From: Acidobacteriota bacterium
GTDB taxonomy: Bacteria; Acidobacteriota; Vicinamibacteria; Vicinamibacterales; UBA8438
Assembly: GCA_009838525.1 (NCBI GenBank)
Contig: VXRJ01000034.1
Span: forward strand, 62,640-126,639
Length of the DNA stretch: 64,000 nt
Direction: 5' to 3'
Positions 19,064-56,340 of the stretch are shown here, in pieces (positions within the stretch are counted from its first letter, which is position 1; each line of letters starts with the position of its first letter). The position numbers were made by a program, and so were the translations under genes. Under the pieces are notes generated by a model. It did no database searches, was not told where the DNA came from, and saw only the letters and a list, made by a program, of their open reading frames with translations.

Positions 19064-20647
19064 ATGAGTACCGCCCCCACCGCCTTCACGCACCGCCAGG
19101 TCCTCATCATCTACGTCGGCCTGATGGCCGGGATGTTTCTGTCGGCGCTCGATCAGATGATCGTGGCGACCGCGCTCCCGACCATCGTCGGCGAGCTGGG
19201 CGGCCTCGACTACTACTCCTGGGTCGTTACCGCCTACCTTCTCTCCGGCACCGTCACGCCTCCGCTCTTCGGCAAGCTGGGCGACCTGTACGGCCGGCGG
19301 ATCGTCTACCAGGCGGCGGTCGCGATCTTCCTGCTCGGATCGCTGATGGCGGGTCTGGCGCCCGGGATGATGGAACTCGTGATCGCACGTGGCGTGCAGG
19401 GTGTCGGCGCGGGCGGTCTGGCCACGTCGGCGTTCGCCATCATCGGCGATGTCGTCCCCGCCCGGCAGCGTGGGCGCTACATCGGCTACATGGGTTCCGT
19501 CTGGGCGGTGGCGAGCGTCGTCGGGCCTCTGGTGGGCGGTTTCATCGTGGACAACGTCTCGTGGCGGTGGGTCTTCCTGGTCAACCTGCCGATCGGTGCG
19601 GTGGTGCTCGCGGTGGTTGCGGTGGTGTTGAAGCTGCCGCCCGTACATCGCCCAGCGAAGCTCGACATCGGTGGCGCCGTGCTGTTGATGTGCGGCGTCA
19701 GTCTCGTCCTTCTCGCGCTCCTTCAGGTCGAACGCGGTGGACCAGCGGCGTGGCGCACGGTCCCGTTCCTCGCATCCGCGGCCGCCGGGGCGGCGTTGCT
19801 CGCGGCGTTCGTCCGCTGGGAGGCCGCCGCGGAGGAACCGTTGCTGCCACTTCGGCTGTTCCGGATCCGCATCTTCTCGGTCTGCGCGGCCCTTGGTCTG
19901 GCGACCGGCAGCGCGTTCTTCGGGACGGTGGTCTTCCTGCCGCTCTTCCTCCAGGTGGTAACGGGGGTCTCCGCCACCAACTCCGGCCTGCTTCTGCTGC
20001 CGCTGACCGCCGGCATCGTGGCCGGATCGGCTGGCTCGGGACGTCTCATCACGGCCACGGGCCGCTACCGTATCTATCCGATCGCCGGCGGCATCTGCAC
20101 CGTAGTCGGCATGGCGTTGCTGAGCGTCATGCAGGGCGGCACGTCGCCGCTTGTCATTTCGGGGACGATGCTCCTGGCCGGTCTTGGTTTCGGCATGATC
20201 CTGCAGACGTCATTGCTCGCGGTGCAGAATGGCGTGGACCACCGCGACCTGGGCGTCGCCACTTCGTCGACACAGTTTTTTCGCCTGTTGGGGGGCTCGT
20301 TCGGCGTTGCGGTCTTCGGCTCGATTTTGAACGTCCGGCTCGCCACCGAGCTGCCCGCCCGTCTCCCCGCCGCCACGGTTGCGGAGGTAGGGGGCGAGGT
20401 GACTCGGCTGCTCCAGAGCCCGACCGCCATCCGGGCGCTGGCCCCCGAAGTCGCGACCGGCGTCGCCGCCGCCGTGGAGGCTTCGATTCAGACGATCTTC
20501 TTGTCTGCCGTCCCTCTCACCGTTCTCTGTGTCATCTTCGGTTTCCTCCTTGACGAGATCCCGCTCCGCGAGACCATCGGCGCTCCGCGGGCGGCGCCGT
20601 CAGAGGTTGCAGGATCACCCCGGATCAGGGAGAATCGCCAGACCTGA
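19064..20647 (+). CDS. MFS drug transporter, DHA2 family (EmrB/QacA, 14 helices)
   Basis: 527 aa, the usual length for 14-helix DHA2 proton antiporters. Signature stretches include the helix-1 motif LDQMIVATALPTIVGELGG, motif A as GKLGDLYGRR, and the helix-5 antiporter motif region WRWVFLVNLPIGAVVL. It would export hydrophobic or cationic compounds across the inner membrane. There is no EmrA-like adaptor next to it. The gene stands alone between the DUF2911 hairpin and the first DUF1592 cassette. The ribosome site is weak. Confidence 0.92.
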   Translation: MSTAPTAFTHRQVLIIYVGLMAGMFLSALDQMIVATALPTIVGELGGLDYYSWVVTAYLLSGTVTPPLFGKLGDLYGRRIVYQAAVAIFLLGSLMAGLAPGMMELVIARGVQGVGAGGLATSAFAIIGDVVPARQRGRYIGYMGSVWAVASVVGPLVGGFIVDNVSWRWVFLVNLPIGAVVLAVVAVVLKLPPVHRPAKLDIGGAVLLMCGVSLVLLALLQVERGGPAAWRTVPFLASAAAGAALLAAFVRWEAAAEEPLLPLRLFRIRIFSVCAALGLATGSAFFGTVVFLPLFLQVVTGVSATNSGLLLLPLTAGIVAGSAGSGRLITATGRYRIYPIAGGICTVVGMALLSVMQGGTSPLVISGTMLLAGLGFGMILQTSLLAVQNGVDHRDLGVATSSTQFFRLLGGSFGVAVFGSILNVRLATELPARLPAATVAEVGGEVTRLLQSPTAIRALAPEVATGVAAAVEASIQTIFLSAVPLTVLCVIFGFLLDEIPLRETIGAPRAAPSEVAGSPRIRENRQT

Positions 20648-20693
20648 GCAGCGCTGGCGTTTAGCCCAGGAAGGCGGGCCGGGGGGCCCGATA

Positions 20694-23099
20694 ATGGGAC
20701 TGACCGGGGGGATTCTGCGAGTCTCGGTTGCGGCGCTTGCGTTGGCGTCCGCCGTACCGGCCGAAGCGCAGGAGCTCGACCATCGGGCGCTGCTCGATCG
20801 CTACTGCGTCACCTGCCACAACGAGCGGCTTCGCACCGCCGAGCTGCAACTCGACACCGCGGACGTGGCCAACGTCGCGACGGACCCCGCGCTTTGGGAG
20901 AAGGTGGCGCGGAAGCTGCGCGCGGGCGCCATGCCGCCGGCCCCGCGCCCGCGGCCCGACGAGGCTACCTACGCGCGCTTCATCGGGTGGATCGAATCGG
21001 AGCTCGATGCGGCGGCTGCAACCAGTCCCGATCCGGGGCGGACGGAGACGTTCCACCGGCTGAACCGCGCCGAGTACCGCAACGTCATCCGCGACCTGCT
21101 CGCGCTGGACGTCGATGTCGCGGAGCTGCTCCCGGCCGACGACGGCAGCTACGGCTTCGACAACATCGCTGGCGTCCTGGGCGTCTCGCCGACCCTGCTC
21201 GAACGCTATCTGTCCGCGGCCAAGAAGGTGAGCCGCCTGGCAATCGGCAATCCGGACGTCACGCCGACCGCGATGACCTACCGGCTCGCGGCCGACTATC
21301 CGCAGGACGACCGAATCGATGGCCTGCCGTTCGGCACCCGCGGCGGAATGGCGATCCCGTTCGCCTTCCCGGCCGACGCGGAGTACACCATCCGCGTCCG
21401 GCTGAGCCGCGACACGGCGGACAACATCAAGACTTTCGTGGAAGCGCATGAGCTGGACGTCAGCCTGGACGGGGAGCATCTCGAAACCTTCATCGTCGGC
21501 GGCGAGACGGCGCCGGAGGATCGGCGGAGCGATGAGTATCGCGAGTGGCGACTCGCCCAGGGACGGATTGACGAGGACTGGGTGATACGCCTTCCGGTGC
21601 GGGCCGGCCCCCGGACGCTGCGCGTCGCGTTCCGGAAGAAGACATCCGCCTATCCCGAAACGCTCCGGCAGCCGTACCTACGGCCGTACACCAATACCAC
21701 GGGCGGCGACACCCGCTATCAGCCGTACCTCGAGAGCGTTGTCATCACGGGACCGTTCGAGGGGAGCGGCGCGCCGCCCGCCGTGGACACGCCGAGCCGC
21801 GCGCGCGTATTCACCTGCCTGCCGGCAAACGACGCGGACGCGACGGAGGCGCGAGCCTGCGCCCGCGAGATCCTGTCGACGCTGGCCCGGCGGGGTTACC
21901 GGCGCCCGGTGACCGACCGAGATCTGGACATCCTGCTCGGGTTCTACGAGGACGGCGCGGCGGACGGCAACTTCGAACGCGGCGTCGAACTGGCGGTCCG
22001 CCGCCTCCTCGTCAGCCCCGAGTTCCTGTTCCGGGTCGTCCGCGATCCGGAGGACGTCGGCCCGGGCGAGAACTATCGGCTGGGCGACCTGGAGCTCGCG
22101 TCACGTCTCTCGTTCTTCCTCTGGAGCAGCATTCCGGACGACGAGCTGCTCGACGCGGCGGTAGAGGGACGGCTGAGCGATCCGGACGTGCTGGAGGCGC
22201 AGGTCCGCCGGATGCTCGACGACGAGCGGTCGCGCGCACTGGTCGAGAACTTCGCCGGGCAGTGGCTCTACTTGCGCAACATCCCGGCCCTGGTGCCCGA
22301 CGAGAACCGGTACCCGGAGTTCGGCGAAGGTTTGCGGCAGGCGATGCGCCGCGAGACGGAGCTCTTCTTCGAGAGCATCGTGCGCGAGGACCGGAACGTC
22401 CTGGAGCTGCTGACCGCGGACTATACGTTCGTCAACGAGCGGCTTGCGCGCCATTACGGCATTCCGGGGGTATCCGGGAGCCACTTCCGGCGCGTGACGC
22501 TGCCCGATGCGACGCGGCGCGGCCTGCTGGGACACGGCAGCATCCTCGCGGCGACCGCCTATCCGACGCGAACCTCGCCGGTCCTGCGCGGCAAGTGGGT
22601 GCTGGAGAACCTGCTGGGCACGCCGCCGCCGCTTCCGCCGCCGGACGTGCCTTCCCTCGAGGAGACGACCAGCGAAGGGCGCGCGTTGTCGATGCGCGAG
22701 GCGATGGAACAGCATCGCGCCAGCCCGGTCTGCGCGAGTTGCCACCGCCTGATGGATCCGCCGGGCTTCGCTCTCGAGGAGTTCGACGCGGTCGGCAAGC
22801 ACCGGACGCGCAACGAGGCCAACCTGCCGATCGACGCCTCCGGCATGCTGCCGGACGGCACCGGGTTCGAGGGCGCCGCCGGCCTGCGCGACGCGCTGCT
22901 CAAGCGACCTGACCTGGTGGTCACCACGCTGACCGAGAAACTGATGACCTACGCGCTCGGCCGCGGCGTCGAGCACTACGACGCACCCGCCGTCCGCACG
23001 ATCACCCGCGCCGCCGCGCGTGACGGCACGACGTTCTCGTCGATCGTCCTGGGCATCGTCCGAAGCGTGCCCTTCCAGATGAGGAGATCCGCATCATGA
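20694..23099 (+). CDS. DUF1592-type exported protein with two heme-c motifs, cassette copy 1
   Basis: 801 aa from the ATG at 20694, which gives a signal peptide (cleavage near AEAQ); the frame is open upstream to 20529 without a site. Order: cytochrome-like CVTCHNERL (Cys38-His42), DUF1587 (FHRLNRAEYRNVIRDLLALD ... YGFDNIAGVLGVSP), a beta-rich carbohydrate-binding-like section, DUF1595, DUF1592 (LASRLSFFLWSSIPDDELL), DUF1588 (GLLGHGSIL ... CASCHRLMDPPG near residue 680), DUF1585 (MTYALGRGVEHYD). The family is found in Planctomycetes and Acidobacteria and is predicted to be a periplasmic redox protein; its activity is unproven. It overlaps the DUF1552 gene by four bases (ATGA). The copy at 28808 has the same length. 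Confidence 0.93.
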   Translation: MGLTGGILRVSVAALALASAVPAEAQELDHRALLDRYCVTCHNERLRTAELQLDTADVANVATDPALWEKVARKLRAGAMPPAPRPRPDEATYARFIGWIESELDAAAATSPDPGRTETFHRLNRAEYRNVIRDLLALDVDVAELLPADDGSYGFDNIAGVLGVSPTLLERYLSAAKKVSRLAIGNPDVTPTAMTYRLAADYPQDDRIDGLPFGTRGGMAIPFAFPADAEYTIRVRLSRDTADNIKTFVEAHELDVSLDGEHLETFIVGGETAPEDRRSDEYREWRLAQGRIDEDWVIRLPVRAGPRTLRVAFRKKTSAYPETLRQPYLRPYTNTTGGDTRYQPYLESVVITGPFEGSGAPPAVDTPSRARVFTCLPANDADATEARACAREILSTLARRGYRRPVTDRDLDILLGFYEDGAADGNFERGVELAVRRLLVSPEFLFRVVRDPEDVGPGENYRLGDLELASRLSFFLWSSIPDDELLDAAVEGRLSDPDVLEAQVRRMLDDERSRALVENFAGQWLYLRNIPALVPDENRYPEFGEGLRQAMRRETELFFESIVREDRNVLELLTADYTFVNERLARHYGIPGVSGSHFRRVTLPDATRRGLLGHGSILAATAYPTRTSPVLRGKWVLENLLGTPPPLPPPDVPSLEETTSEGRALSMREAMEQHRASPVCASCHRLMDPPGFALEEFDAVGKHRTRNEANLPIDASGMLPDGTGFEGAAGLRDALLKRPDLVVTTLTEKLMTYALGRGVEHYDAPAVRTITRAAARDGTTFSSIVLGIVRSVPFQMRRSAS

Positions 23100-24448
23100 T
23101 CATCACCAAGCTCGCCCTGCCACGCCGGACGTTTCTCCGCGGCGTCGGCGCCGCGGTGGCGCTGCCCCTGCTCGACGCGATGTCGCCGGCGCTGACGGCG
23201 CTTTCGAAGACCGCGGCGGCGCCGGTCAAGCGACTCGGCTTCATCTACCTGCCGAACGGCGCGGTGATGCAGACCTGGACGCCGGAGAGCAACGGCACGG
23301 AGCTGGCGCTCTCGCCGTCGCTCGGTCCGCTCGCACCGTTCCGCGATCAGACGATCGTCTACAGCCGGCTTGCTCATGGGCAGGCGGAGCCGCTCGGGGA
23401 CGGCAACGGCGAGCACTCCCGGGCCAGCTCGGTCTGGCTGAACGGCGTCCACCCGAAGCAGACGGAGGGAGCCGACGTGCGGGCCGGGATCACGGCGGAT
23501 CAGGTGGCGGCGGCCGAGATCGGACGCGACACGCCGCTACCGTCGCTGGAGCTGGCGATCGACCTCGACTTTCTCGTTGGCAATTGCGAGAACGGCTACT
23601 CGTGCGTCTATATGAACACGGTGGCGTGGCGCACCGCGACGACGCCGCTGCCGATGGAGAACAACCCGCGCGTCGTCTTCGAGCGGCTCTTCGGCGATGG
23701 CGGCACCCGCGAGGAGCGGCTCGCCGAGTTGCGCACGGACCGGAGCATCCTCGATTCGGTGACCGACGACCTGACGCATCTCGAGCGGAGCCTCGGCAAC
23801 AGCGACCGCCACCGCCTGGATCAGTACCTCGACGCGGTGCGCGCCGTGGAGCGCCGCATCCAGTTGTCGGAAGCGCAGGGAGCCGATACGGCGCTGCCCG
23901 ACGAACTGGAGCGCCCCGCAGGGATTCCCGACTCGTACGAGGAACACGTCAAGCTGATGTTCGACCTGATCTCGCTCTCCTACCAGGCGGACATCACGCG
24001 CGTCTTCACGTTCATGGTGGGGCGCGAACTGGGCGGCCGGACCTATCCGCAGATCGGCGTGCCGGATCCTCACCACGGGCTCTCGCACCACCGCAACGAT
24101 CCGGAAAAGCTGGCGAAGCTGACGAAGATCAACCGGCACCACGTCGAGCTGTTCACGCACTTCCTGGGAAGCCTCGCGGAGGCGCCCGACGGCGAGGGGT
24201 CGCTGCTCGACAAGTCGATCGTGCTCTATGGCGCCGGCCTGGGCGACAGCAACGACCACCTGCACTACGACCTGCCGGTCCTGACCGTAGGCGGGAAGGC
24301 GGCGGACATGCGGGGCGGCCGCCACCTCGAGTATCCGAAGGACACGCCGATGACCAACCTGCTCATCAGCATGCTTGCCAAGGCGGGCCTGCCGGCCGAG
24401 CAGTTGGGTGACAGCACCGGCCGCCTGACGGCGCTCACCGACGTCTAG
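23096..24448 (+). CDS. DUF1552 exported protein, cassette copy 1
   Basis: 450 aa, translationally coupled to the DUF1592 gene through ATGA. The N-terminus PRRTFLRGVGAAVALPLLDAM is a twin-arginine signal typical of this family. Landmarks are GFIYLPNGAVMQTWTP, GNGEHSRASSVWLNGVHPKQT, YSCVYMNTVAW, GVPDPHHGLSHHRND and the late YGAGLGDSNDHLHYDLPVL. The fold is related to DUF1501/alkaline-phosphatase-like proteins, and several His/Asp clusters look suited to metal binding, but no reaction is known. DUF1592 and DUF1552 genes almost always occur together, so the products probably cooperate in the periplasm. Confidence 0.93.
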   Translation: MIITKLALPRRTFLRGVGAAVALPLLDAMSPALTALSKTAAAPVKRLGFIYLPNGAVMQTWTPESNGTELALSPSLGPLAPFRDQTIVYSRLAHGQAEPLGDGNGEHSRASSVWLNGVHPKQTEGADVRAGITADQVAAAEIGRDTPLPSLELAIDLDFLVGNCENGYSCVYMNTVAWRTATTPLPMENNPRVVFERLFGDGGTREERLAELRTDRSILDSVTDDLTHLERSLGNSDRHRLDQYLDAVRAVERRIQLSEAQGADTALPDELERPAGIPDSYEEHVKLMFDLISLSYQADITRVFTFMVGRELGGRTYPQIGVPDPHHGLSHHRNDPEKLAKLTKINRHHVELFTHFLGSLAEAPDGEGSLLDKSIVLYGAGLGDSNDHLHYDLPVLTVGGKAADMRGGRHLEYPKDTPMTNLLISMLAKAGLPAEQLGDSTGRLTALTDV

Positions 24449-24483
24449 AAGTGAGGGCGCGCCGGACTCGGTTCTGAGTGACT

Positions 24484-25998
24484 ATGCGGTCAAACGGGAA
24501 CTTGCGGCGCAGGGCGACCGCGGTGCTCGCTGTCGCTTGGCTGGCGGTCGGGTTCGCCGCTGGCGTTCGAGTCGCGGTGGCGGCGCCGGCCGATCTGCCG
24601 TTGATCGAAGCGGTGCGGGCGGGCGATCAGGAGCAGGTGCGGGCGCTGATCGCCAGCGATGTCGATGTCAATGCGGCCGACGCCGACGGCGCGACGGCGC
24701 TCCATTGGGCTACGTTCGACGATGAGGTCGAGATCGGCCGCGCGCTGATCGAGGCGGGCGCGCACGTCGATGCCGTGACCCGGTTCGGCGCGACGTCCAT
24801 CGCACTCGCCGCCGAGAACGCCAGCGTCGCCTTCCTCACCGTGCTGCTCGATGCGGGCGCCGATCCGGACTGGGCGACCCCGGAAGGCGAGACCCTGCTG
24901 ATGACGGTTGCCCGCACCGGCCGGACCGATGCGGTGCGGCTTCTGCTGGAGCGGGGCGCCGATCCGAACCGCGCCGAGTCGTGGCGGGGCCAGACCGCGC
25001 TGATGTGGGCGTCCACTGAAAACCGTCTCGAAGTGGCGGCGGCGCTGCTCGCGGCGGGCGCTGACGTGCACGAGCGTTCCACCGGGAGCCTCGGGTTTAG
25101 TCCACTGCTGTTTGCCGTGCGCGCGGGCCACCTCGAGATGACGCGACGCTTGCTCGACGCCGGTGCGAACCCGGACGAAACGTTGCTCGACGGCACCAGC
25201 GCCGTCGTCCTCGCGACGAAGAACGGCCACTACGAGTTGGGCGCCGTGCTGCTCGACGCGGGCGCCAATCCGAACGCCGACGACAATGGCTGGACAGCGC
25301 TGCACGAGATCAAGTGGACGCGGCGGCCCAATCTCGGTTTCAACAACCCGCCGCCCATCGTCACCGGTACGATGAGCGACCTGGCATTCGCCCGGGAGCT
25401 GGTCGAGCACGGCGCCGACCTGAACGCCCGGATGACGAAGGAGCCGAACAACCGCTACCGCAACGTCCTGAACCGGATCGGATCCACGCCGTTTCTGCTG
25501 GCCGCAAAGGGCGCCGACGTGGAAATGATGCGCCTGCTCGTCGACCTGGGCGCCGACCCGCTGATTCCGAACGAGGACGGCACCACGCCGCTGATGGTCG
25601 CGGCCGGCGTCGGCATCTGGGCCGTCGGCGAGAGCCCCGGCACCAACGCGGAGGCGCTGGAGGCGGTCCGGTACGCCCTGGAGCTGGGGGGTGACGTCAC
25701 CACCGTGGACGACAACGGCGACACCGCCCTGCACGGCGCCATCATCCGCGGGTCCGAACCGCTCGTCCGGTTCCTGCTGGACCAGGGTGCGGACATCGAG
25801 GCGGCCAACGAAAAGGGCTGGACGCCATTCCGCATCGCGAAGGGCGTGTTCTATTCCAACACCGGCAAGCGCTGGCCCGAGATGGAAGCGCTGTTGCTGG
25901 AGCTGGGCGCCGACCCCACGACTGCCGTCGGCGCCGACAACACGATCGACTGGACCCTTGGCGATCCGGACGCTACCGAGCCGCGCGACGACCGCTGA
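24484..25998 (+). CDS. Secreted ankyrin-repeat protein, cassette copy 1
   Basis: 504 aa from the ATG at 24484; a GTG six bases earlier is possible. A signal peptide (hydrophobic run ending VAVAAP, about residue 35) precedes roughly ten ankyrin repeats, seen as recurring DADGATALHWAT, LLLERGADPNRAE, LLLDAGANPNADDNGWTALHE and similar. No catalytic domain is seen. Ankyrin arrays bind other proteins, so this is probably a periplasmic scaffold or inhibitor for the DUF1592/DUF1552 pair upstream (36 bp gap). The stop codon abuts the stop of the convergent esterase gene with no base between. Confidence 0.92.
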   Translation: MRSNGNLRRRATAVLAVAWLAVGFAAGVRVAVAAPADLPLIEAVRAGDQEQVRALIASDVDVNAADADGATALHWATFDDEVEIGRALIEAGAHVDAVTRFGATSIALAAENASVAFLTVLLDAGADPDWATPEGETLLMTVARTGRTDAVRLLLERGADPNRAESWRGQTALMWASTENRLEVAAALLAAGADVHERSTGSLGFSPLLFAVRAGHLEMTRRLLDAGANPDETLLDGTSAVVLATKNGHYELGAVLLDAGANPNADDNGWTALHEIKWTRRPNLGFNNPPPIVTGTMSDLAFARELVEHGADLNARMTKEPNNRYRNVLNRIGSTPFLLAAKGADVEMMRLLVDLGADPLIPNEDGTTPLMVAAGVGIWAVGESPGTNAEALEAVRYALELGGDVTTVDDNGDTALHGAIIRGSEPLVRFLLDQGADIEAANEKGWTPFRIAKGVFYSNTGKRWPEMEALLLELGADPTTAVGADNTIDWTLGDPDATEPRDDR

Positions 25999-28657: not shown

Positions 28658-28711
28658 GGACATCTCCCCTGAAGCGTGATTCCGGCTCATGCTACCGCAC
28701 TCCGACGCCGA

Positions 28712-28741
28712 TTGACACGCCTCCGCGCTTCGATTCAGAAT
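28712..28741 (+). promoter_or_regulatory. Candidate sigma-70 promoter of the second DUF1592 cassette
   Basis: TTGACA (28712-28717), an 18-bp spacer and CAGAAT (28736-28741) lie in the 150-bp gap between the divergent cyclase and DUF1592 genes. A transcript starting near 28748 would have a leader of about 60 bases. Confidence 0.4.
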
Positions 28742-28807
28742 GGCGTGTTTTCCATGTGGGACGAAGTTTGTGCGCTGCCGCGCGCGGTCCTCGTCCCGGG
28801 GCCTCAG

Positions 28808-31213
28808 ATGCCGAGAAGCGCGCGACTCGCATTCGCGGCGGTGGCAGGCGGCGTCGCCGTCTTTCTGACGGTGGCCGCGCCGGCTACGTCCGCCCCGCAG
28901 GCCTCCGGTGCGCCCGGCGCCCCGGTCGAGCTCGATCAGCAGGCGCTCCTCGACCGCTACTGCGCCACGTGCCACAACGACCGCCTGGAGACTGGCGGCT
29001 TCTCGCTCGAATCCCTCGACGCGGCGGACGTGGCAGCGCATCCGGAGCAGTGGGAGAAGGTCGTGCGTAAGCTCCGCGCCGGGGCGATGCCGCCCCGTCC
29101 GCGTCCGCGCCCGGACGATGCGACCTACGGCGCCTTCCGCGCCTGGCTTGAGGGCGAACTGGACACGGCGGCAGCCGCCGATCCGAACCCGGGCCGTACC
29201 GAGACGTTCCACCGGCTCAGCCGCACGGAGTACCGCAACGCCATCCGTGACCTGCTCGCGCTCGACGTGAGCGTCGACGAACTGCTGCCGGCGGACGACA
29301 CCAGCTACGGCTTCGACAACATCGCCGGCGTGCTGGGCGTCTCGCCGACGCTGATGGATCGTTACCTCTCCGCAGCGCGCAAGGTCAGCCGCCTCGCCGT
29401 GGCCTCGCCCGTGCCGTCCCCCACCGCCGAGACCTTCCGGATCGCGTCCGATCTGGGGCAGGACGTTCGGATGGAGGGCCTCCCGTTCGGTACGCGGGGC
29501 GGAATTGCGGTCGAGTACAACTTCCCGGAGGACGCCGAGTACGTCATCCAGGTGCTGCCGGACGGTCCGCTGCGGATCGAGCCGCACGATCTGGAGATCA
29601 CCATCGACGGCGAGCGGATCGAGTTGCTCACTGTCGGCAAGGCGCCCGACGAGAACGACCCGCGCGGCCTCTACGTGCCGGAGATCGAAACGCTGGAGGT
29701 GCGGGTCCCGGTCACCGCCGGACCCCATGAAGTCGGCGTGGCGTTCCTCCGCAAGACGTCGGCCGAGCCGGAGGGGATTCGCAAGCTGTACCTCCGGCCG
29801 TTCACCGGCGAAGGCTCCGGCGGTGATTCCCGCTACCAGCCTTATGTGGAGAGCGTGACGATCGCGGGACCTTACGAGTCCAGCGGCGCGCGGCCGGTCG
29901 ACGAGACACCGAGCCGTGAGCGGCTCTTCACGTGCCGGCCGGCGGCGGGAGCGGCCGCTGGCGAGGAGGCCGCCTGTGCGCGGGAGATCCTCTCGACTCT
30001 CGCGCGGCGCGCGTTCCGCCGGCCGGTCGACGGTGAGGACGTGGATCGCCTGTTTGACTTCTACGAACGTGGCCGCGCCGGCGGCAGCTTCGACGCCGGG
30101 ATCGAGATGGCGCTTCGCCGGCTGCTCGTCAGTCCGGAATTCCTCTTCCGCGTCGAGCGGGATCCGGAGGACGCCGGGGCGGCCAGCATCTACCGGGTCG
30201 GCGACCTCGAGCTGGCATCGCGCCTGTCGTTCTTCCTCTGGAGCAGCATCCCGGACGACGAGCTTCTGGAGCTTGCCGAGCAGGACGAGCTGAGCGACCC
30301 TGCCACGTTCGAGGCGCAGGTGGAGCGGATGCTGGCCGATCCGCGCTCAGACGCGCTCACGAGCAATTTCGCCGGGCAGTGGCTGACGCTTCGAAACGCC
30401 GCCGCGGTGCAGCCGGACGAGGATGTCTTTCCAGACTTCGGGGAGGGGCTGCGTCTGGCCTTCCGCCGCGAGACAGAACTGCTCTTCGACAGCGTGCTGC
30501 GCGAGAACCGGAGCGTCCTCGACCTGCTCGCGGCCGACTATACGTTCGTCAACGAGCGGCTTGCCCGCCACTACGGCCTGCCGGGAGTCCGTGGCAGCCA
30601 TTTCCGTCGCGTCACGCTTGACGAGCCGGCTCGCGGCGGCCTGCTGGGTCACGGCAGCATCCTGACCGTTACGTCGTACGCCAACCGCACGTCCCCGGTG
30701 AATCGCGGCAAGTGGGTGCTCGAGAACATTCTCGGAACCCCGCCGCCTCCGCCGCCCCCGAACGTGCCGGAACTGGAGACGGCGGAGGGGGGAGAGGCCC
30801 TTTCGATGCGCGAGGCGATGGCCCAGCATCGCGCCAACCCGGTCTGCGCAAGCTGCCACCGCCTGATGGATCCGGTAGGCCTGTCGCTGGAGAACTTCGA
30901 TGCCGTCGGCCGCTGGCGGGACCGGAGCGAGACGAAGCATGTGATCGATGCCTCCGGGGAGCTGCCCGATGGCTCCACGTTCGATGGGCCCGGCGAGTTG
31001 AAGGCGGCGCTGCTGCGTCACCCCGACCGCTTCGTTACGACCGTTACCGAGAAGCTGCTGACCTACGCCCTGGGGCGTGGGGTGGAGTACTATGACGCCC
31101 CCACGGTGCGGGCGATTGTCCGGGAAGCCGCGGCTGACGACTACCGGCTGTCGACCCTCATCAAGGGGATCGTTCGGAGCGCGCCGTTCCAGATGAGGAG
31201 AACGCCGTCATGA
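28808..31213 (+). CDS. DUF1592-type exported protein with two heme-c motifs, cassette copy 2
   Basis: 801 aa from the ATG at 28808, chosen because it starts a normal signal peptide; ATGs at 28676 and 28754 only add residues before it. Domain order equals copy 1: CATCHNDRL (Cys52-His56), DUF1587 (FHRLSRTEYRNAIRDLLALD), DUF1595, DUF1592 (LASRLSFFLWSSIPDDELL), DUF1588 with CASCHRLMDPVG near residue 680, and DUF1585 (LTYALGRGVEYYD). Length is identical to copy 1, and much of the core is the same residue for residue, while the signal peptide and the middle beta-rich part differ. This indicates a duplication followed by divergence, perhaps for another substrate. It overlaps the DUF1552 gene by ATGA. 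Confidence 0.93.
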   Translation: MPRSARLAFAAVAGGVAVFLTVAAPATSAPQASGAPGAPVELDQQALLDRYCATCHNDRLETGGFSLESLDAADVAAHPEQWEKVVRKLRAGAMPPRPRPRPDDATYGAFRAWLEGELDTAAAADPNPGRTETFHRLSRTEYRNAIRDLLALDVSVDELLPADDTSYGFDNIAGVLGVSPTLMDRYLSAARKVSRLAVASPVPSPTAETFRIASDLGQDVRMEGLPFGTRGGIAVEYNFPEDAEYVIQVLPDGPLRIEPHDLEITIDGERIELLTVGKAPDENDPRGLYVPEIETLEVRVPVTAGPHEVGVAFLRKTSAEPEGIRKLYLRPFTGEGSGGDSRYQPYVESVTIAGPYESSGARPVDETPSRERLFTCRPAAGAAAGEEAACAREILSTLARRAFRRPVDGEDVDRLFDFYERGRAGGSFDAGIEMALRRLLVSPEFLFRVERDPEDAGAASIYRVGDLELASRLSFFLWSSIPDDELLELAEQDELSDPATFEAQVERMLADPRSDALTSNFAGQWLTLRNAAAVQPDEDVFPDFGEGLRLAFRRETELLFDSVLRENRSVLDLLAADYTFVNERLARHYGLPGVRGSHFRRVTLDEPARGGLLGHGSILTVTSYANRTSPVNRGKWVLENILGTPPPPPPPNVPELETAEGGEALSMREAMAQHRANPVCASCHRLMDPVGLSLENFDAVGRWRDRSETKHVIDASGELPDGSTFDGPGELKAALLRHPDRFVTTVTEKLLTYALGRGVEYYDAPTVRAIVREAAADDYRLSTLIKGIVRSAPFQMRRTPS

Positions 31214-32565
31214 TCATCACGAAGATGTCCTTGCCCCGCCGGACTTTCCTGCGCGGGGTGGGCGCGACGCTGGCGCTGCCGCTGCTCGACGCGATGGTGC
31301 CGGCCGGCACCGCGCTGGCGCGGACGGCCGCGAAGGCGTCGCCGCGCCTCGGCTTCATCTACATTCCGAACGGCGCCAACATGGCGGAGTGGACGCCGCC
31401 TGGCGACAGCGGTGCGCTCGAGCTGTCGCGCAGTCTGCAGCCGCTCGCCAACGTGCGCGACCACGTCGTCATCCCGACCGGCCTGGACCATCGGCAGGCG
31501 GAGGCGTGGGGCGACGGGAACGGCGAACACTCGCGGGCCAGCGCGGTCTGGCTGAACGGCGTTCACCCGAAGCGGACCGAGGGCGCGGACGTCCGCGCGG
31601 GCACGACGGCGGACCAGATTGCCGCCGCCACGCTCGGCCAGGAGACGCCGCTGCCGTCGCTGGAACTGGCGCTCGAGAACAGCTACGTCGTAGGAAACTG
31701 CGACAACGGGTACTCCTGCGTCTACACGAACACCTTCTCCTGGCGGACGCCCACGACGCCGCTCCCGATGGAGCACAACCCGCGCGTCGTCTTCGAGCGC
31801 CTGTTCGGCGAGGGCGGGACCGAAGAGCAGCGGGTCGCCCGCCTGCAGGACGACCGGAGCATCCTCGATGCGGTGCGCGAGGACATGGTGCGGCTCGACC
31901 GGAGCCTCGGCGCCGCCGACCGGTCGCGGGTCACGCAGTACCTCGAGGCGGTGCGCGAGATCGAGCGCCGCATCTCGCGGGCGGAGGCGCAGAGCGACGC
32001 TGCGTTACCGGACGTACTGGAGCGACCGGTGGGGATCCCGGAGTCGTTCGACGAGCATGCGAAACTGATGTTCGACCTGCAGGCGCTCGCCTTCCAGGCC
32101 GATATCACGCGGGTCTTCACGTTCCTGATCGGCCGGGAGCAGACCGCGCAGAGCTTCCCCGAGATCGGCGTGCCCGACCCGCATCACGCGATGTCGCATC
32201 ACCAAATGGATGCCGAGCGGCTCGAGAAATACGCCATGATCAACACCTACGAGGTAAGCCTGCTGGCCGGCTTCCTCGAAAAGCTGGCGGCGACGCCGGA
32301 TGGTGACGGCACGCTGCTCGATCAGGCGATGATCCTCTACGGCGGCGGCATCAGCGACGGCGATCAGCACTCGCACATGGATCTGCCGCTGATCCTGGCA
32401 GGGGGCGGAGCGGGCGCGCTGAAGGGAGGCCGCCACCTGAAGTACGAGGGCGAGACCCCGATGACCAATCTGCTGGTCAGCGTTCTCGACAAGGCGGGCG
32501 TCCCGGTCGACGAGCTGGGCGACAGTACCGGCCGCCTGCCGATGGAAACGCTCGCGAACGTCTGA
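31210..32565 (+). CDS. DUF1552 exported protein, cassette copy 2
   Basis: 451 aa, one residue longer than copy 1. It has the same twin-arginine start (PRRTFLRGVGATLALPLLDAM), GFIYIPNGANMAEWTPP, GNGEHSRASAVWLNGVHPKRT, YSCVYTNTFSW, GVPDPHHAMSHHQMD and GGGISDGDQHSHMDLPLIL. The His-rich and Asp-rich landmarks are kept between copies, so they are the likely functional sites. Coupled translation with the DUF1592 gene suggests equal amounts of the two products. Biochemical role unknown. Confidence 0.93.
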   Translation: MIITKMSLPRRTFLRGVGATLALPLLDAMVPAGTALARTAAKASPRLGFIYIPNGANMAEWTPPGDSGALELSRSLQPLANVRDHVVIPTGLDHRQAEAWGDGNGEHSRASAVWLNGVHPKRTEGADVRAGTTADQIAAATLGQETPLPSLELALENSYVVGNCDNGYSCVYTNTFSWRTPTTPLPMEHNPRVVFERLFGEGGTEEQRVARLQDDRSILDAVREDMVRLDRSLGAADRSRVTQYLEAVREIERRISRAEAQSDAALPDVLERPVGIPESFDEHAKLMFDLQALAFQADITRVFTFLIGREQTAQSFPEIGVPDPHHAMSHHQMDAERLEKYAMINTYEVSLLAGFLEKLAATPDGDGTLLDQAMILYGGGISDGDQHSHMDLPLILAGGGAGALKGGRHLKYEGETPMTNLLVSVLDKAGVPVDELGDSTGRLPMETLANV

Positions 32566-32584
32566 CATGGCTGCCGGTTGGCGC

Positions 32585-32632
32585 GCCGGCGCCCGCGCCG
32601 GCAACGAGAGGTGCGCCGGCCTCCAGGCCGGC
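32585..32632. repeat. Two tandem palindromic elements (8-bp stem, 2-nt loop)
   Basis: GCCGGCGC-CC-GCGCCGGC (32585-32602) and GCCGGCCT-CC-AGGCCGGC (32615-32632) lie between the DUF1552 stop and the ankyrin start. The two inner stem pairs differ but remain paired. A third copy with inner pairs GT/AC is at 56292-56309. Confidence 0.6.
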
Positions 32633-32641
32633 ATTTCGACA

Positions 32642-34111
32642 ATGCGAGTCACCACCATCGCCGTCGTCGCCCTTGCGCTCGCCTGCACGGCCGGTGTGGC
32701 GGCGCGCGCGGTCGATGCGCCGCTCATCGACGCCGTCAAGGCGGGCGACGCGCAGGCGGTCCGCGCACTGCTGGCCGATGGCGTTGCGGTCGGGACGGCG
32801 GAGGCCGACGGAACGACGGCCCTCCACTGGGCGGCTCATCACGACCGTCTCGACATCGTACAACTGCTGCTGGACGCTGGCGCGGCGGCCGATGCGACCA
32901 CCCGCTACGGGGTCACGCCCCTCGCGCTCGCCTCGCTCAATGGCAGCACGCCGATGATCACGCGCCTGCTCGAGGCGGGGGCCGACCCGAACCGCGCCAA
33001 CCCGGAAGGGGAGACGCCCCTGATGACCGCGGCGCGGACCGGACACGGCGCCGCCATCGACGCGCTGCTCGCGCACGGCGCCGACGTGGATGCGGTGGAG
33101 GAGTGGCGCGGCCAGACCGCGCTCATGTGGGCGGCGGCGCAGAACCAGGTGACATCGGTCGAACGGCTGCTCGCGGCGGGTGCGGATCCGAATGCCCGCT
33201 CCGCGCGAGGCTTCACGCCGGTGCTCTTCGCGGCGCGCGAAGGCAATGTGGAAGTACTGGCGCCACTTGTCCGGTCCGGCGCCGATGTGGACGACGTGCT
33301 GCCCGAACGCGGCATGAGCGGTCTGGTGCTCGCTGTCTACAACGCGCAGTACGACTTCGCCAAGGCGCTGCTCGACGAGGGCGCCGACCCCAACGCGTCC
33401 GGGAACGGCTGGACCGCGCTTCACCAGGTAGTGTGGACTTACCGTCCCAACCTGGGTCGCAATCCGCCCTTCCCGGTGCCGCTGGGCGAGCTGGACGCCT
33501 TCGACATGGTGCGCGAGCTTGCCGCCGCCGGAGCGGATCTGAACTTGCGCCAGACGAAGGAGCCGCGCGACGGCAACCGGAACGTGCTGAACCGGATTGG
33601 TTCGACGGCGTTCCTGCAGGCGGCGAAGGTGGCGGACATCGAGATGATGCAGTTGCTGGTCGATCTGGGCGCCGATCCGTCCATCACGACGGAGGAGGGC
33701 GCCACGCCGCTGATGGCGGCGGCCGGCGTCGGCATTTGGAAGATTGGCGAGAACCCCGGCACCAACGAGGAAGCGCTCGCCGCCGTCGAACTGGCCTGGG
33801 AGCTGGGGAACGACGTGAACGCCGTCGACGTGAACGGCGACACCGCGCTGCATGGCGCAATCCACCGTGGCGCGGACAATATTGTCCGCTTCCTGGTCGA
33901 GAAGGGAGCGAACATCGACGCCGTGAACGAGAACGGTTGGACGGCGCTCTCCGTCGCGCAGGGGGTCTTCTATCCCAACACTTTCAACCGGCATCCGGAG
34001 CTTGTGGACCTACTGCTTGATCTGGGCGCCGATCCGGACGCCGGAACCCGGCGGCCGGAAGATCTTTCGCCGGCGGAACGCCTGGCCCTGGCCGAGGAGC
34101 AGGAGCAGTAG
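32642..34111 (+). CDS. Secreted ankyrin-repeat protein, cassette copy 2
   Basis: 489 aa from the ATG at 32642; the frame is open to 32567 but that part is made of palindromic repeats. A signal peptide (VALALACTAGVAARA) is followed by about ten ankyrin repeats, for example EADGTTALHWAAHH, LLEAGADPNRANPEGETPLMTAAR and VNGDTALHGAIHRGADN. Repeat-by-repeat order and the unusual insert with NRNVLNRIGSTAFLQAAK are shared with copy 1. It is 76 bp after DUF1552 copy 2. The C-terminus is a charged tail (LALAEEQEQ) absent from copy 1. A protein-binding role in the envelope is the best inference. Confidence 0.92.
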   Translation: MRVTTIAVVALALACTAGVAARAVDAPLIDAVKAGDAQAVRALLADGVAVGTAEADGTTALHWAAHHDRLDIVQLLLDAGAAADATTRYGVTPLALASLNGSTPMITRLLEAGADPNRANPEGETPLMTAARTGHGAAIDALLAHGADVDAVEEWRGQTALMWAAAQNQVTSVERLLAAGADPNARSARGFTPVLFAAREGNVEVLAPLVRSGADVDDVLPERGMSGLVLAVYNAQYDFAKALLDEGADPNASGNGWTALHQVVWTYRPNLGRNPPFPVPLGELDAFDMVRELAAAGADLNLRQTKEPRDGNRNVLNRIGSTAFLQAAKVADIEMMQLLVDLGADPSITTEEGATPLMAAAGVGIWKIGENPGTNEEALAAVELAWELGNDVNAVDVNGDTALHGAIHRGADNIVRFLVEKGANIDAVNENGWTALSVAQGVFYPNTFNRHPELVDLLLDLGADPDAGTRRPEDLSPAERLALAEEQEQ

Positions 34112-55211: not shown

Positions 55212-55254
55212 GTGCGGTCGTACGGATTGAGAGCCGGAAGGCCAGGAGGGCATG

Positions 55255-56259
55255 ATGCGGAAGACGTGGATGCCATGTTTCGTTCTGTTCGCCTCGGTAG
55301 CCGTCATTGCCGCGTTCGGCTGCAGCGGCGAAGCCCCGCCGGCGGAACCGGAGGCCGAAGCCGCGGCTCCCGCGGAGACAGCCATTGATACGTCGGCGAA
55401 CGAACGGTTCGCGGGGGTCTGGTCGTTAACCCGGATCGAGCGGCGGGACGTGAACGGCGAACTGTTGGGCGAGCCGACGACGGACCGGTTGGGCTACCTC
55501 ATGTACGACGCGTCGGGTCACATGGGAGTCACGTTGATGCAGCCGGATCGGCAGCCGTACGCCGGGGACACTCCGACCGCGGACGAGGCGTTGGATCGCC
55601 TCGGCACGTACACGTCGTACTTCGGGCCGTTCACCGTCAATGAGGCGGATGGGTACGTCACCCATCACCTTCTGGGGAGCGTGAACCCGTCCGGAGCCGG
55701 ATCCGACTATCAGCGTTTCTTCACGTTCGGCGACAACACGCTGACGCTGCAGCCGCCGCCGAACGACCGGGGCGAGAAATCGTTCATCACCTGGACGCGG
55801 CTGCCGGATCTACCCGAGTCCGAGTTGACCGACACGCACCGGCGCCTGGTCGGCGTCTACAGCGTCGAATCCGTGGAGCGCCGGACGGGGGACGGGGAGG
55901 AGGTGCCGGCGAATCAGTACGAAGTCGCGTACATCATGTACGCGCCGTCCGGCCACATGTCGGTCCACCTGATGCGGCCGGGCCGGACGCCATACGCTGG
56001 CGACCGGCCGACGCCGGAGGAGGCCTTGATGGCGACCGACACGTACGGCAGCTACTTCGGGCCCTTCTCGGTCAACGAGGAGGAGCGGTATCTGGTCCAC
56101 CATCGGATTGGAAGCGAGAACCCCAACGCCGACGGAAGCGACGCGCAGCGGTTCTACGAGTTGACCGATACGCACCTCGTACTCATGCCGCCTCCGGGCA
56201 CCGACGACGAGGGCCGGCCGGTGCAGAGCAGGCTTACGTGGAGGCGGATCAGCGACTAG
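55255..56259 (+). CDS. Lipoprotein with two tandem lipocalin-like domains
   Basis: 334 aa from the second of two adjacent ATGs, five bases after AGGAGG. The lipobox AAFGC gives a lipidated Cys23 and an Ala/Glu/Pro tether. Two lipocalin-like (PF13924) domains follow, about residues 45-180 and 190-334, each with the same order: FAGVWSLTRIERRD / LVGVYSVESVERR, GYLMYDASGHMGVTLMQPDR / AYIMYAPSGHMSVHLMRPGR, SYFGPFTVNEADGYVTHHLLGSVNP / SYFGPFSVNEEERYLVHHRIGSENP. Both domains look intact and may bind small hydrophobic ligands at the envelope. It converges on the TonB-dependent receptor gene. Confidence 0.9.
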   Translation: MRKTWMPCFVLFASVAVIAAFGCSGEAPPAEPEAEAAAPAETAIDTSANERFAGVWSLTRIERRDVNGELLGEPTTDRLGYLMYDASGHMGVTLMQPDRQPYAGDTPTADEALDRLGTYTSYFGPFTVNEADGYVTHHLLGSVNPSGAGSDYQRFFTFGDNTLTLQPPPNDRGEKSFITWTRLPDLPESELTDTHRRLVGVYSVESVERRTGDGEEVPANQYEVAYIMYAPSGHMSVHLMRPGRTPYAGDRPTPEEALMATDTYGSYFGPFSVNEEERYLVHHRIGSENPNADGSDAQRFYELTDTHLVLMPPPGTDDEGRPVQSRLTWRRISD

Positions 56260-56340
56260 GGCTAGGCGCCCTCAAGGGGAGTGAGGTAGTGGCCGGCGTA
56301 GACGCCGGCGGACCACCGGAAGCCGTGCCTGGCCCTAGCC
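56260..56340. terminator. Convergent cruciform: outer stem joining two stop regions plus a palindromic repeat
   Basis: GGCTAGG (56260-56266) pairs with CCTAGCC (56334-56340), enclosing the gap between the lipoprotein and receptor stops. Inside is GCCGGCGT-AG-ACGCCGGC (56292-56309), the third copy of the repeat seen twice at 32585-32632. Likely a bidirectional terminator. Confidence 0.5.

Follow-up and report, generated by a model that had tools for sequence, protein, structure and literature searches.

What are the short GC-rich palindromes that recur between the genes of this locus, and how did they come to be there? The window, i.e., the whole 64,000-nucleotide stretch of DNA that was analyzed (G000:C34:62640-126639, contig C34 of the genome denoted G000 here), contains three copies, and all three are found where the sequence-only reading had placed them and with the inner base pairs that it had given. 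The hairpins themselves (32585-32602, 32615-32632 and 56292-56309) are as described there, and each belongs to a longer unit of 24 nt, with a 5' head GGTNC and, usually, an A 3' of the stem. Unit 1 (32580-32603, plus strand) starts 30 nt ahead of unit 2 (32610-32633, plus strand; G000:C34:95249-95271), and the two lie downstream of the gene for an HXXSHH/DUF1552 protein (31210-32565, plus strand), a host gene outside the element, and upstream of another host gene that encodes an ankyrin-repeat protein (32642-34111, plus strand). Unit 2 is identical to the consensus GGTGCGCCGGCCTCCAGGCCGGCA and its fold is well separated from shuffles (z -3.3); unit 1 is diverged (head GGCGC, inner pairs GC/GC, three mismatches to the consensus), and its fold, with a 7-bp stem and a 4-nt loop, is alone no better than that of shuffles (z -0.2). 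Unit 3 (56291-56314, minus strand; head GGTCC, two mismatches, z -2.9) represents a GT..AC sub-type and lies between two convergent host genes, those for a Lipocalin_5-domain protein (55252-56259, plus strand) and a TonB-dependent receptor (56335-58932, minus strand), both with the 3' end towards it. A scan of the window against Rfam matches no family. The pattern GCCGGC-N6-GCCGGC, with at most one mismatch, is present at 12 places in the window (3 of the 12 exact) vs 2.6 expected.

A search of the genome (4,292,814 bases, or 4.29 Mb, in 38 contigs) reveals that the window hairpins are members of a dispersed family of the form GGT[G/C/T]C-GCCGGC-CT-CC-AG-GCCGGC-A, with more than 100 short hairpin repeats scattered across this one genome. 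GCCGGC-N6-GCCGGC matches 193 places, vs 32 when the pattern is reversed; for GCCGGCCTCCAGGCCGGC, the 18-mer taken exactly, the counts are 96 and zero. The 59 relatives, of which 27 share the family and 32 the order, include 54 that lack this 18-mer and five with one copy each. When 28 of the 96 exact copies are aligned with their flanks, the unit is delimited as GGTNC-GCCGGCCT-CC-AGGCCGGC-A, 24 nt in length, in which the foot is adjoined by a short complementary palindrome with an 8-bp stem and a 2-nt tip (CC). The first G, the T and the last C of the head are present in 28/28 copies and the second G in 27/28 (one copy reads GAT..), the fourth base is G in 22 copies, C in five and T in one, and the base 3' of the stem is A in 26/28; outside the 24-nt unit, no position is conserved in the aligned copies.

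The strict pattern GGTNCGCCGGCNTCCANGCCGGC, in which the inner pair is left free, matches 63+53 = 116 places in the genome and none in the reversed control; the free bases pair in all 100 of these places that were listed (80 C..G, 19 G..C, 1 A..T). In a second test, run on a sampled part of the sequence, sites were chosen without regard to the 3' arm, by the CC loop, the 5' head and the outer part of the 5' arm; 76 of the 101 sites form at least 7 of the 8 pairs, and the 25 that form fewer are chance sites and half-units. Pair 7 in this selection is C-G in 75 sites and G-C in 14, and pair 6 is C-G in 78 and T-A in 5. Given that the inner pair varies with the pairing kept, the claim of the sequence-only reading that pairing is under selection is right. 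The 100 listed places include 20 adjoining pairs less than 100 nt apart, 13 in the same direction and 7 inverted, and the heads point outward in 7/7 of the latter, so that the closely spaced, head-outward inverted pairs of BIMEs and REPINs are present in this family. Some units are preceded by 12-nt head halves (GGTGCGCCGGCC), as seen at C16:167235-167270 of the same genome.

The presence of a RAYT-type transposase had been anticipated for such repeats, and the genome encodes exactly one. The only Y1_Tnp match is the product of a gene at G000:C14:22929-23555 (the same as L040:7929-8555), embedded in a dense cluster of units. This protein (208 aa, intact frame) contains the HuH motif NHVH and the sequence YIQWNP, with Y1_Tnp as its only Pfam domain. 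It matches the NCBIfam profile REP_Tyr_transpos (NF047646) with 89.4 bits (cut-off 80) and the IS200 model with 32 bits, below the cut-off of 55; against the PDB, it gives a weak match to E. coli TnpArep (4er8, E 0.031). Directly upstream of the gene are three direct units, 37 nt apart, and directly downstream are two inverted units together with three 26-nt half-unit repeats and a diverged fourth; this bracketing of the RAYT gene by units is the REPtron layout. The 26-nt copies form a tandem at L040:8626-8726, 3' of the transposase gene, with the sequence GGTGCGCCGGCCTCAACGTTCCCCAC on the minus strand. The neighbors of the RAYT gene are an ApbE gene on one side and, on the other, a gene for a Fer2/FAD/NAD-binding protein, the domain make-up of which we read as NqrF-like.

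The genome holds, then, a repeat family with pairing-preserving variation and a distinct distribution, associated with one RAYT gene with an intact frame, and the hairpins are very probably non-autonomous REP-type mobile elements of one REPtron with a single host-encoded RAYT/TnpAREP, the gene for which (on contig C14) is outside the window. The one transposase gene sitting among the hairpins most likely spread them. By analogy with the characterized REPtrons, the HuH/Tyr transposase would recognize the unit as folded single-stranded DNA, via the 5' foot GGTN-C and the 8-bp hairpin with its CC tip, cut beside the unit and join it elsewhere. The units could spread singly, as head-outward inverted pairs of the REPIN/BIME type and as tandem arrays, and would persist where they are least harmful, i.e., 3' of genes and between convergent ones, seldom in divergent gaps (which hold promoters), and sometimes as in-frame protein linkers. 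Several points count against the mobile-element reading: no transposition event was seen, the foot departs from GT[A/G]G and two guide-contact residues are changed, a genome with 184 related units gave no RAYT match (see below), 13 of the 40 sampled units are in called genes, and 25 of the 101 sites above form fewer than 7 pairs. On the whole, the proposal that these are REP/BIME-like elements accompanied by a RAYT is supported by the genome, and the non-canonical foot is an addition to it.

The placement of the units relative to genes was analyzed in a 784-kb sample (C18:1-400000, C16:1-220000 and C14:20001-120000 plus the window), with genes called by a simple home-made codon-usage caller and units counted at up to three mismatches (the reversed control yields none at up to four). 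There are 27 units in 57,090 intergenic bases vs 13 in 726,910 called coding bases, so that the density is about 26-fold higher between genes than within called genes; in other words, 27 of the 40 units reside in 7.3% of the sampled sequence. Hairpins with both inner pairs number 34 (23 intergenic and 11 coding), vs a mean of 0.10 and a maximum of one when the 784 kb are shuffled 20 times (order 1), and their density is equal neither between coding and intergenic sequence nor between the genome and the shuffles. With the ATG at 32642 as the start of the ankyrin gene, none of the window copies lies in a gene, as the sequence-only reading had stated; across the sample, intergenic placement is a strong tendency and not a rule. 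The ATG at 32642, with its signal-peptide-like sequence, probably is the start codon of the ankyrin gene, rather than the in-frame ATG at 32567. Within called genes, 11 of the 13 units are no more than about 100 nt away from an end of the called gene or of its neighbor; the window pair, units 1 and 2, is among these 11 and is coding only because the caller used the ATG at 32567, not the one at 32642, so that start-codon uncertainty contributes to the in-gene count of 13/40. By gap type, 13 intergenic units are in convergent gaps (6.8 kb in total), 13 in co-directional gaps (30.9 kb) and one in a divergent gap (17.2 kb); neighbors sharing a gap are counted singly here, and the 27 intergenic units are not 27 independent events.

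Some units are found inside open frames. The gene for an Lhr-type helicase (DEAD, WH_Lhr and DEAD_assoc domains; C16:101978-106351, i.e., L162:1981-6351 on the minus strand, P0002) has an open frame with an in-frame REP array that translates as a GAPASRPA-rich linker, and a FeS_assembly_P protein (L042:6572-7228, contig C10, P0003) contains two in-frame units in an N-terminal linker (GGAPASRPAD and TGPPASRPAP). REPs inside repair and helicase genes are reported for other species (PMC3733652).

Units downstream of genes and in convergent gaps, a strong hairpin, and compensatory change that keeps the pairing are all features that could be expected if the hairpins were kept as host regulatory signals, either terminators or stabilizers of mRNA 3' ends, with the RAYT being incidental. 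We consider this improbable: no intrinsic terminator is called at the window copies; the head GGTNC is conserved although it lies outside the hairpin and was not used in choosing the copies; 54 of the 59 relatives lack the exact unit, which clusters at the RAYT gene; some copies are in frame within genes; and counter-selection of insertions would give the same placement. A present role of the mobile elements, such as mRNA 3'-end protection or an effect on supercoiling, is possible as a side effect. The 193 GCCGGC-N6-GCCGGC places, some with unpaired inner bases, might also suggest a HIP1-like iterated palindrome or a restriction-site effect, with GCCGGC over-represented in the genome; however, GCCGGC itself is near expectation (1838 observed vs 1777 predicted from sub-words in 789 kb sampled), and the signal is a 24-nt unit with head and loop that is absent from the reversed control, which makes such an effect highly implausible. 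Chance hairpins of a GC-rich sequence can practically be dismissed, despite the GC content of 67% and the poor fold of unit 1 alone, in the face of the 34 hairpins vs the shuffle mean of 0.10, the empty reversed controls and the failure of all 100 dinucleotide shuffles of the window to reach 12 matches.

Comparisons with related sequences bear on the turnover of the units that we regard as REP-type mobile elements. A scan for matching sequences, in a set from which near records may be absent, yields two contig stretches, one from the Holophagales genome discussed below and one, VXMF01000032 (L046), from a congener (Terriglobia bacterium SB0661_bin_30), which is 94.5% identical to C16:165409-176074 over 10.5 kb. 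The unit at C16:167235 is common to both species, and another is intact in VXMF01000032 and looks degenerate in the window's species. Only one difference in length concerns the units: the window's species has an additional head half of 12 nt, GGCCGGCGCACC. This alignment shows half-unit turnover and not transposition, with units growing or decaying by half-unit steps. Beyond VXMF01000032, SB0661_bin_30 contains no strict unit and no RAYT match (in a RAYT search run without a positive control), so that VXMF01000032 may be mis-binned.

The window itself offers a paralogous comparison. Segments 20529-25998 and 28676-34111 are diverged tandem copies of one block of genes, with an offset of about 8.1 kb and 68-75% identity across 300-nt stretches (repeats D1-D6); each contains a DUF1552 gene and an ankyrin gene. 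The gap of the paralogous DUF1552-ankyrin pair (24449-24483, plus strand) is 35 nt long and contains no unit, vs 76 nt with units 1 and 2 in the other copy; the two are too diverged to place exact ends. The absence of a unit there fits insertion after the duplication and, equally, loss. One congener contig and one paralogous junction having been compared, no unit-exact empty site was found.

The foot of the unit raises a further question, because REPs are defined by a hairpin with the foot GT[A/G]G (PMC3686654), which was looked for here and is replaced by GGTN(C). Within the order, close homologs of the RAYT are rare (at E 1e-20, 2 of 162 genomes have one, the window's genome included), and across the phylum RAYTs are found in 66 of 396 genomes at E 1e-15, again including the window's own. 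Ninety loci were examined, with the nine weakest matches of the phylum list left out. Hairpin families flank most of the homologous RAYTs examined in the phylum, and many of the 90 loci possess their own family on both sides, with the foot GG[AT]NC, often within CTGGG[AT]NC, and a pyrimidine-rich tip. Related families are multi-copy, with 47 to 244 copies in 8/8 genomes (seven of one genus, searched with one degenerate pattern) and a reversed control of zero except for one match in one genome; another pattern, not fitted to all eight, gives 24 to 66 copies in four genomes, 2 in one and none in three. RAYTs from plasmids, sought as an independent source, are represented by only two distant records. 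Many of the RAYT genes (L051, L057, L059, L062, L131 and others) are part of exceptionally long open frames that run for as many as 1811 codons from stop to stop, which probably are an effect of the GC-rich sequence and not long proteins. In the Holophagales genome SB0675_bin_5 (G516), units of sister REP families number 184, in several stem and loop types, and no RAYT match is seen at E 1e-5 (in a search without a positive control); either the transposase was lost and the units have outlasted it, or the assembly has gaps.

Of the guide-contact residues of the RAYT, the tryptophan (in FWMRDYF), D100 and R104 (E. coli numbering) are retained, Q95 is replaced by methionine and H101 by arginine, so that two residues of the full guide-contact set of RAYT/TnpAREP differ. 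This set consists of W94, Q95, E/D100, H101 and R104, not all of which are strictly conserved in the survey that lists them (PMC6006769); H101, the residue found in E. coli TnpAREP in the alignment, is listed with those that contact GTAG (PMC6006769). Feet were called by an automatic rule, which takes a family of at least two similar hairpins with the foot visible in at least half of them. Among the 66 loci with arginine at position 101, the foot is GG[AT]NC in 47, GT[AG]G in one, both in three and uncalled in 15, whereas the 16 loci with histidine include none with GG[AT]NC, seven with GT[AG]G and nine uncalled; the eight loci with another or an unread residue divide into two with GG[AT]NC, two with GT[AG]G and four with neither foot. 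The comparison set from the same loci, 1157 oriented hairpins without a similar partner, contains 63 GG[AT]NC and 39 GT[AG]G.

With the guide motif masked, a tree of the RAYTs (89 in all) places 52 in a single clade (SH-aLRT 99), in which all members with a readable motif have Arg101. A second Arg101 group of six sits in a clade with His101 rows and has GG-type feet (two called automatically and three by eye). The number of independent contrasts between residue and foot is accordingly two, or three counting weak branches; the foot changes the same way in 1.7 contrasts on average and never the opposite way, and with so few contrasts significance is out of reach. In a scan of alignment columns, position 101 (R166 of P0001) is the best single predictor of the automatic foot calls (56/58). 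Outside the main clade (38 rows, with 16 automatic and 10 by-eye calls and 12 rows left uncalled), position 98 (Y163 of P0001) predicts 25/26 vs 22/26 for position 101; inside the main clade, L071 and L072 combine Ser98 with a GG foot and break the Ser/Tyr98 split. The notion of Arg101 as the only determinant of the foot is weakened by six loci, namely the Arg101 rows L112 (by eye) and L117 with GT-type feet, the Arg101 rows L056, L114 and L130 with both types, and the His101 row L121 with a GGAG foot (by eye).

These data point towards the guide-contact segment and not to one proven residue. A tentative reading, which we rate as possible and somewhat less likely than not being the case, is that a RAYT branch came to read GG[A/T]N(C) in place of GT[A/G]G as the tag of its repeats. 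The switch would be written in the guide-contact segment (E. coli positions 94-104), above all in His101 -> Arg and Ser98 -> Tyr, as an amino-acid/base code with at least two origins. An occasional R at H101 is, however, reported for subclasses 2.5 and 2.7, which the same source links to GT[AG]G repeats (PMC6006769), and this slightly lowers our estimate for this reading; with the small number of contrasts added, the specificity switch is put forward as a hypothesis. If true, it would predict different cleavage dinucleotides and offer a way to retarget RAYTs. Extended to the present feet, the published guide model (PMC8266576) would have GGTG direct cutting to CA and GGTC to GA. Alternatively, the foot could be a shifted, degenerate GT[A/G]G head (CTGG) followed by a G[AT]NC spacer, as in the REPs of Pseudomonas and Stenotrophomonas (GTGGGAGC- and GTGGGTGC-), and not GG[AT]N by the stem. 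Many relatives indeed have CTGGG[AT]NC ahead of the stem, and gamma-proteobacterial REPs combine GT[A/G]G with a GA-type spacer (PMC2817692, PMC3686654); a head with its spacer in these, e.g., GTGGGAGC-stem, contains GGGAGC (PMC2817692, PMC3686654), so that GG[AT]NC may derive from such a head. The shifted head is nevertheless unlikely, because the bases before GGTNC are unconserved in the window's genome (position -6 is C in 15, T in 9, A in 2 and G in 2 of 28 copies), several relatives differ before the foot (CGGTGC, TCGGAAC, CATGGAAC), and the first base is C, not G. Whatever the origin of the foot, searches for GT[A/G]G can overlook families such as the GGTNC one. Where a RAYT locus has hairpins of its own, transposase and tag form a natural pair, which makes the reading of the guide and the choice of the cut site by TnpAREP testable via one or two residues.

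Among the known systems, the closest are the REPtrons of E. coli, Pseudomonas and Stenotrophomonas (PMC2817692, PMC3686654, PMC8266576, PMC6006769). As these sources describe them, they share with the present family a short GC-rich hairpin, a conserved unpaired 5' foot, high copy number, mostly extragenic location, compensatory sub-types, head-outward inverted pairs and a RAYT bracketed by its own repeats, and they differ in the foot, GT[A/G]G vs GGTN-C. Of the features by which REPs are defined (PMC3686654), the complementary palindrome, the high-copy, almost exclusively intergenic occurrence and the flanking cognate RAYT are all present; the protein has the HuH and Y...NP motifs and the NF047646 score above cut-off that characterize RAYT/TnpAREP, and differs from the E. 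coli one by methionine for Q95, aspartate for E100 and arginine for H101, and by what appears to be an acidobacterial host. Since the units appear to work as REPs do and GT[A/G]G is missing, they are counted as a REP variant. The GTAG- and CGTC-tagged REP super-families (PMC3733652) resemble them in size, stem length, tiny loops, convergent and unidirectional placement, and occasional in-gene copies, including those in repair genes and helicases; head-outward pairs occur there as well, and direct pairs are rarer. Neither terminal tag is found in the present family, and the degenerate forms of GTAG given in the sections of PMC3733652 consulted are GYAG, GYRG, GTRG and GTMG, with GG not included.

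Other systems are more distant. Class 3 TnpAY1, known from Solibacter usitatus together with about 600 atypical hairpins (PMC6006769), is similar in the possible acidobacterial host and in its high-copy hairpins, which lack GT[A/G]G and accompany a Y1 transposase, but has the motifs W[TA] and Y....Q (Table 1 of PMC6006769), in place of which the present protein contains WM (in FWMRDYF) and YIQWNP, a class 2 Y...NP motif; the distinction is made by protein motifs and not by hairpin sequences. The TIRYTs (PMC3733652; mostly subclass 2.1, PMC6006769) are also Y1 transposases, presumably of the same phylum, some with repeated flanking repeats, and their shared terminal motif GGGGWSAS resembles GGGWSC; one such TIR family is known from Koribacter (PMC3733652). 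Subclass 2.1 differs, by its description in these sources, in its C-terminal HTH-like domain, its long TIRs and the lack of REP hairpins, whereas the present protein is 208 aa long, with Y1_Tnp as the only Pfam domain, and accompanied by hairpins. The IS200/IS605 family would share the HuH/Y1 chemistry and the recognition of a hairpin with a 5' guide tetranucleotide, which for the present family is presumed by analogy; it differs in that here a single-copy class 2 Y...NP transposase (one Y1_Tnp match) coexists with more than 100 free hairpins and no multi-copy IS.

REP-like sequences have been recorded in three Acidobacteriota species by the RepRanger survey (PMC12306157). A GG[AT]N foot is described nowhere in the literature searched, also by the letters of the repeat and with supplements outside the scope; one may nonetheless be in print, since atypical feet without GT[AG]G are reported for subclass 2.6 and class 3 (PMC6006769). 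Short hairpin repeats with a RAYT are a known kind of element, and it is the unusual recognition tag that sets the present ones apart.
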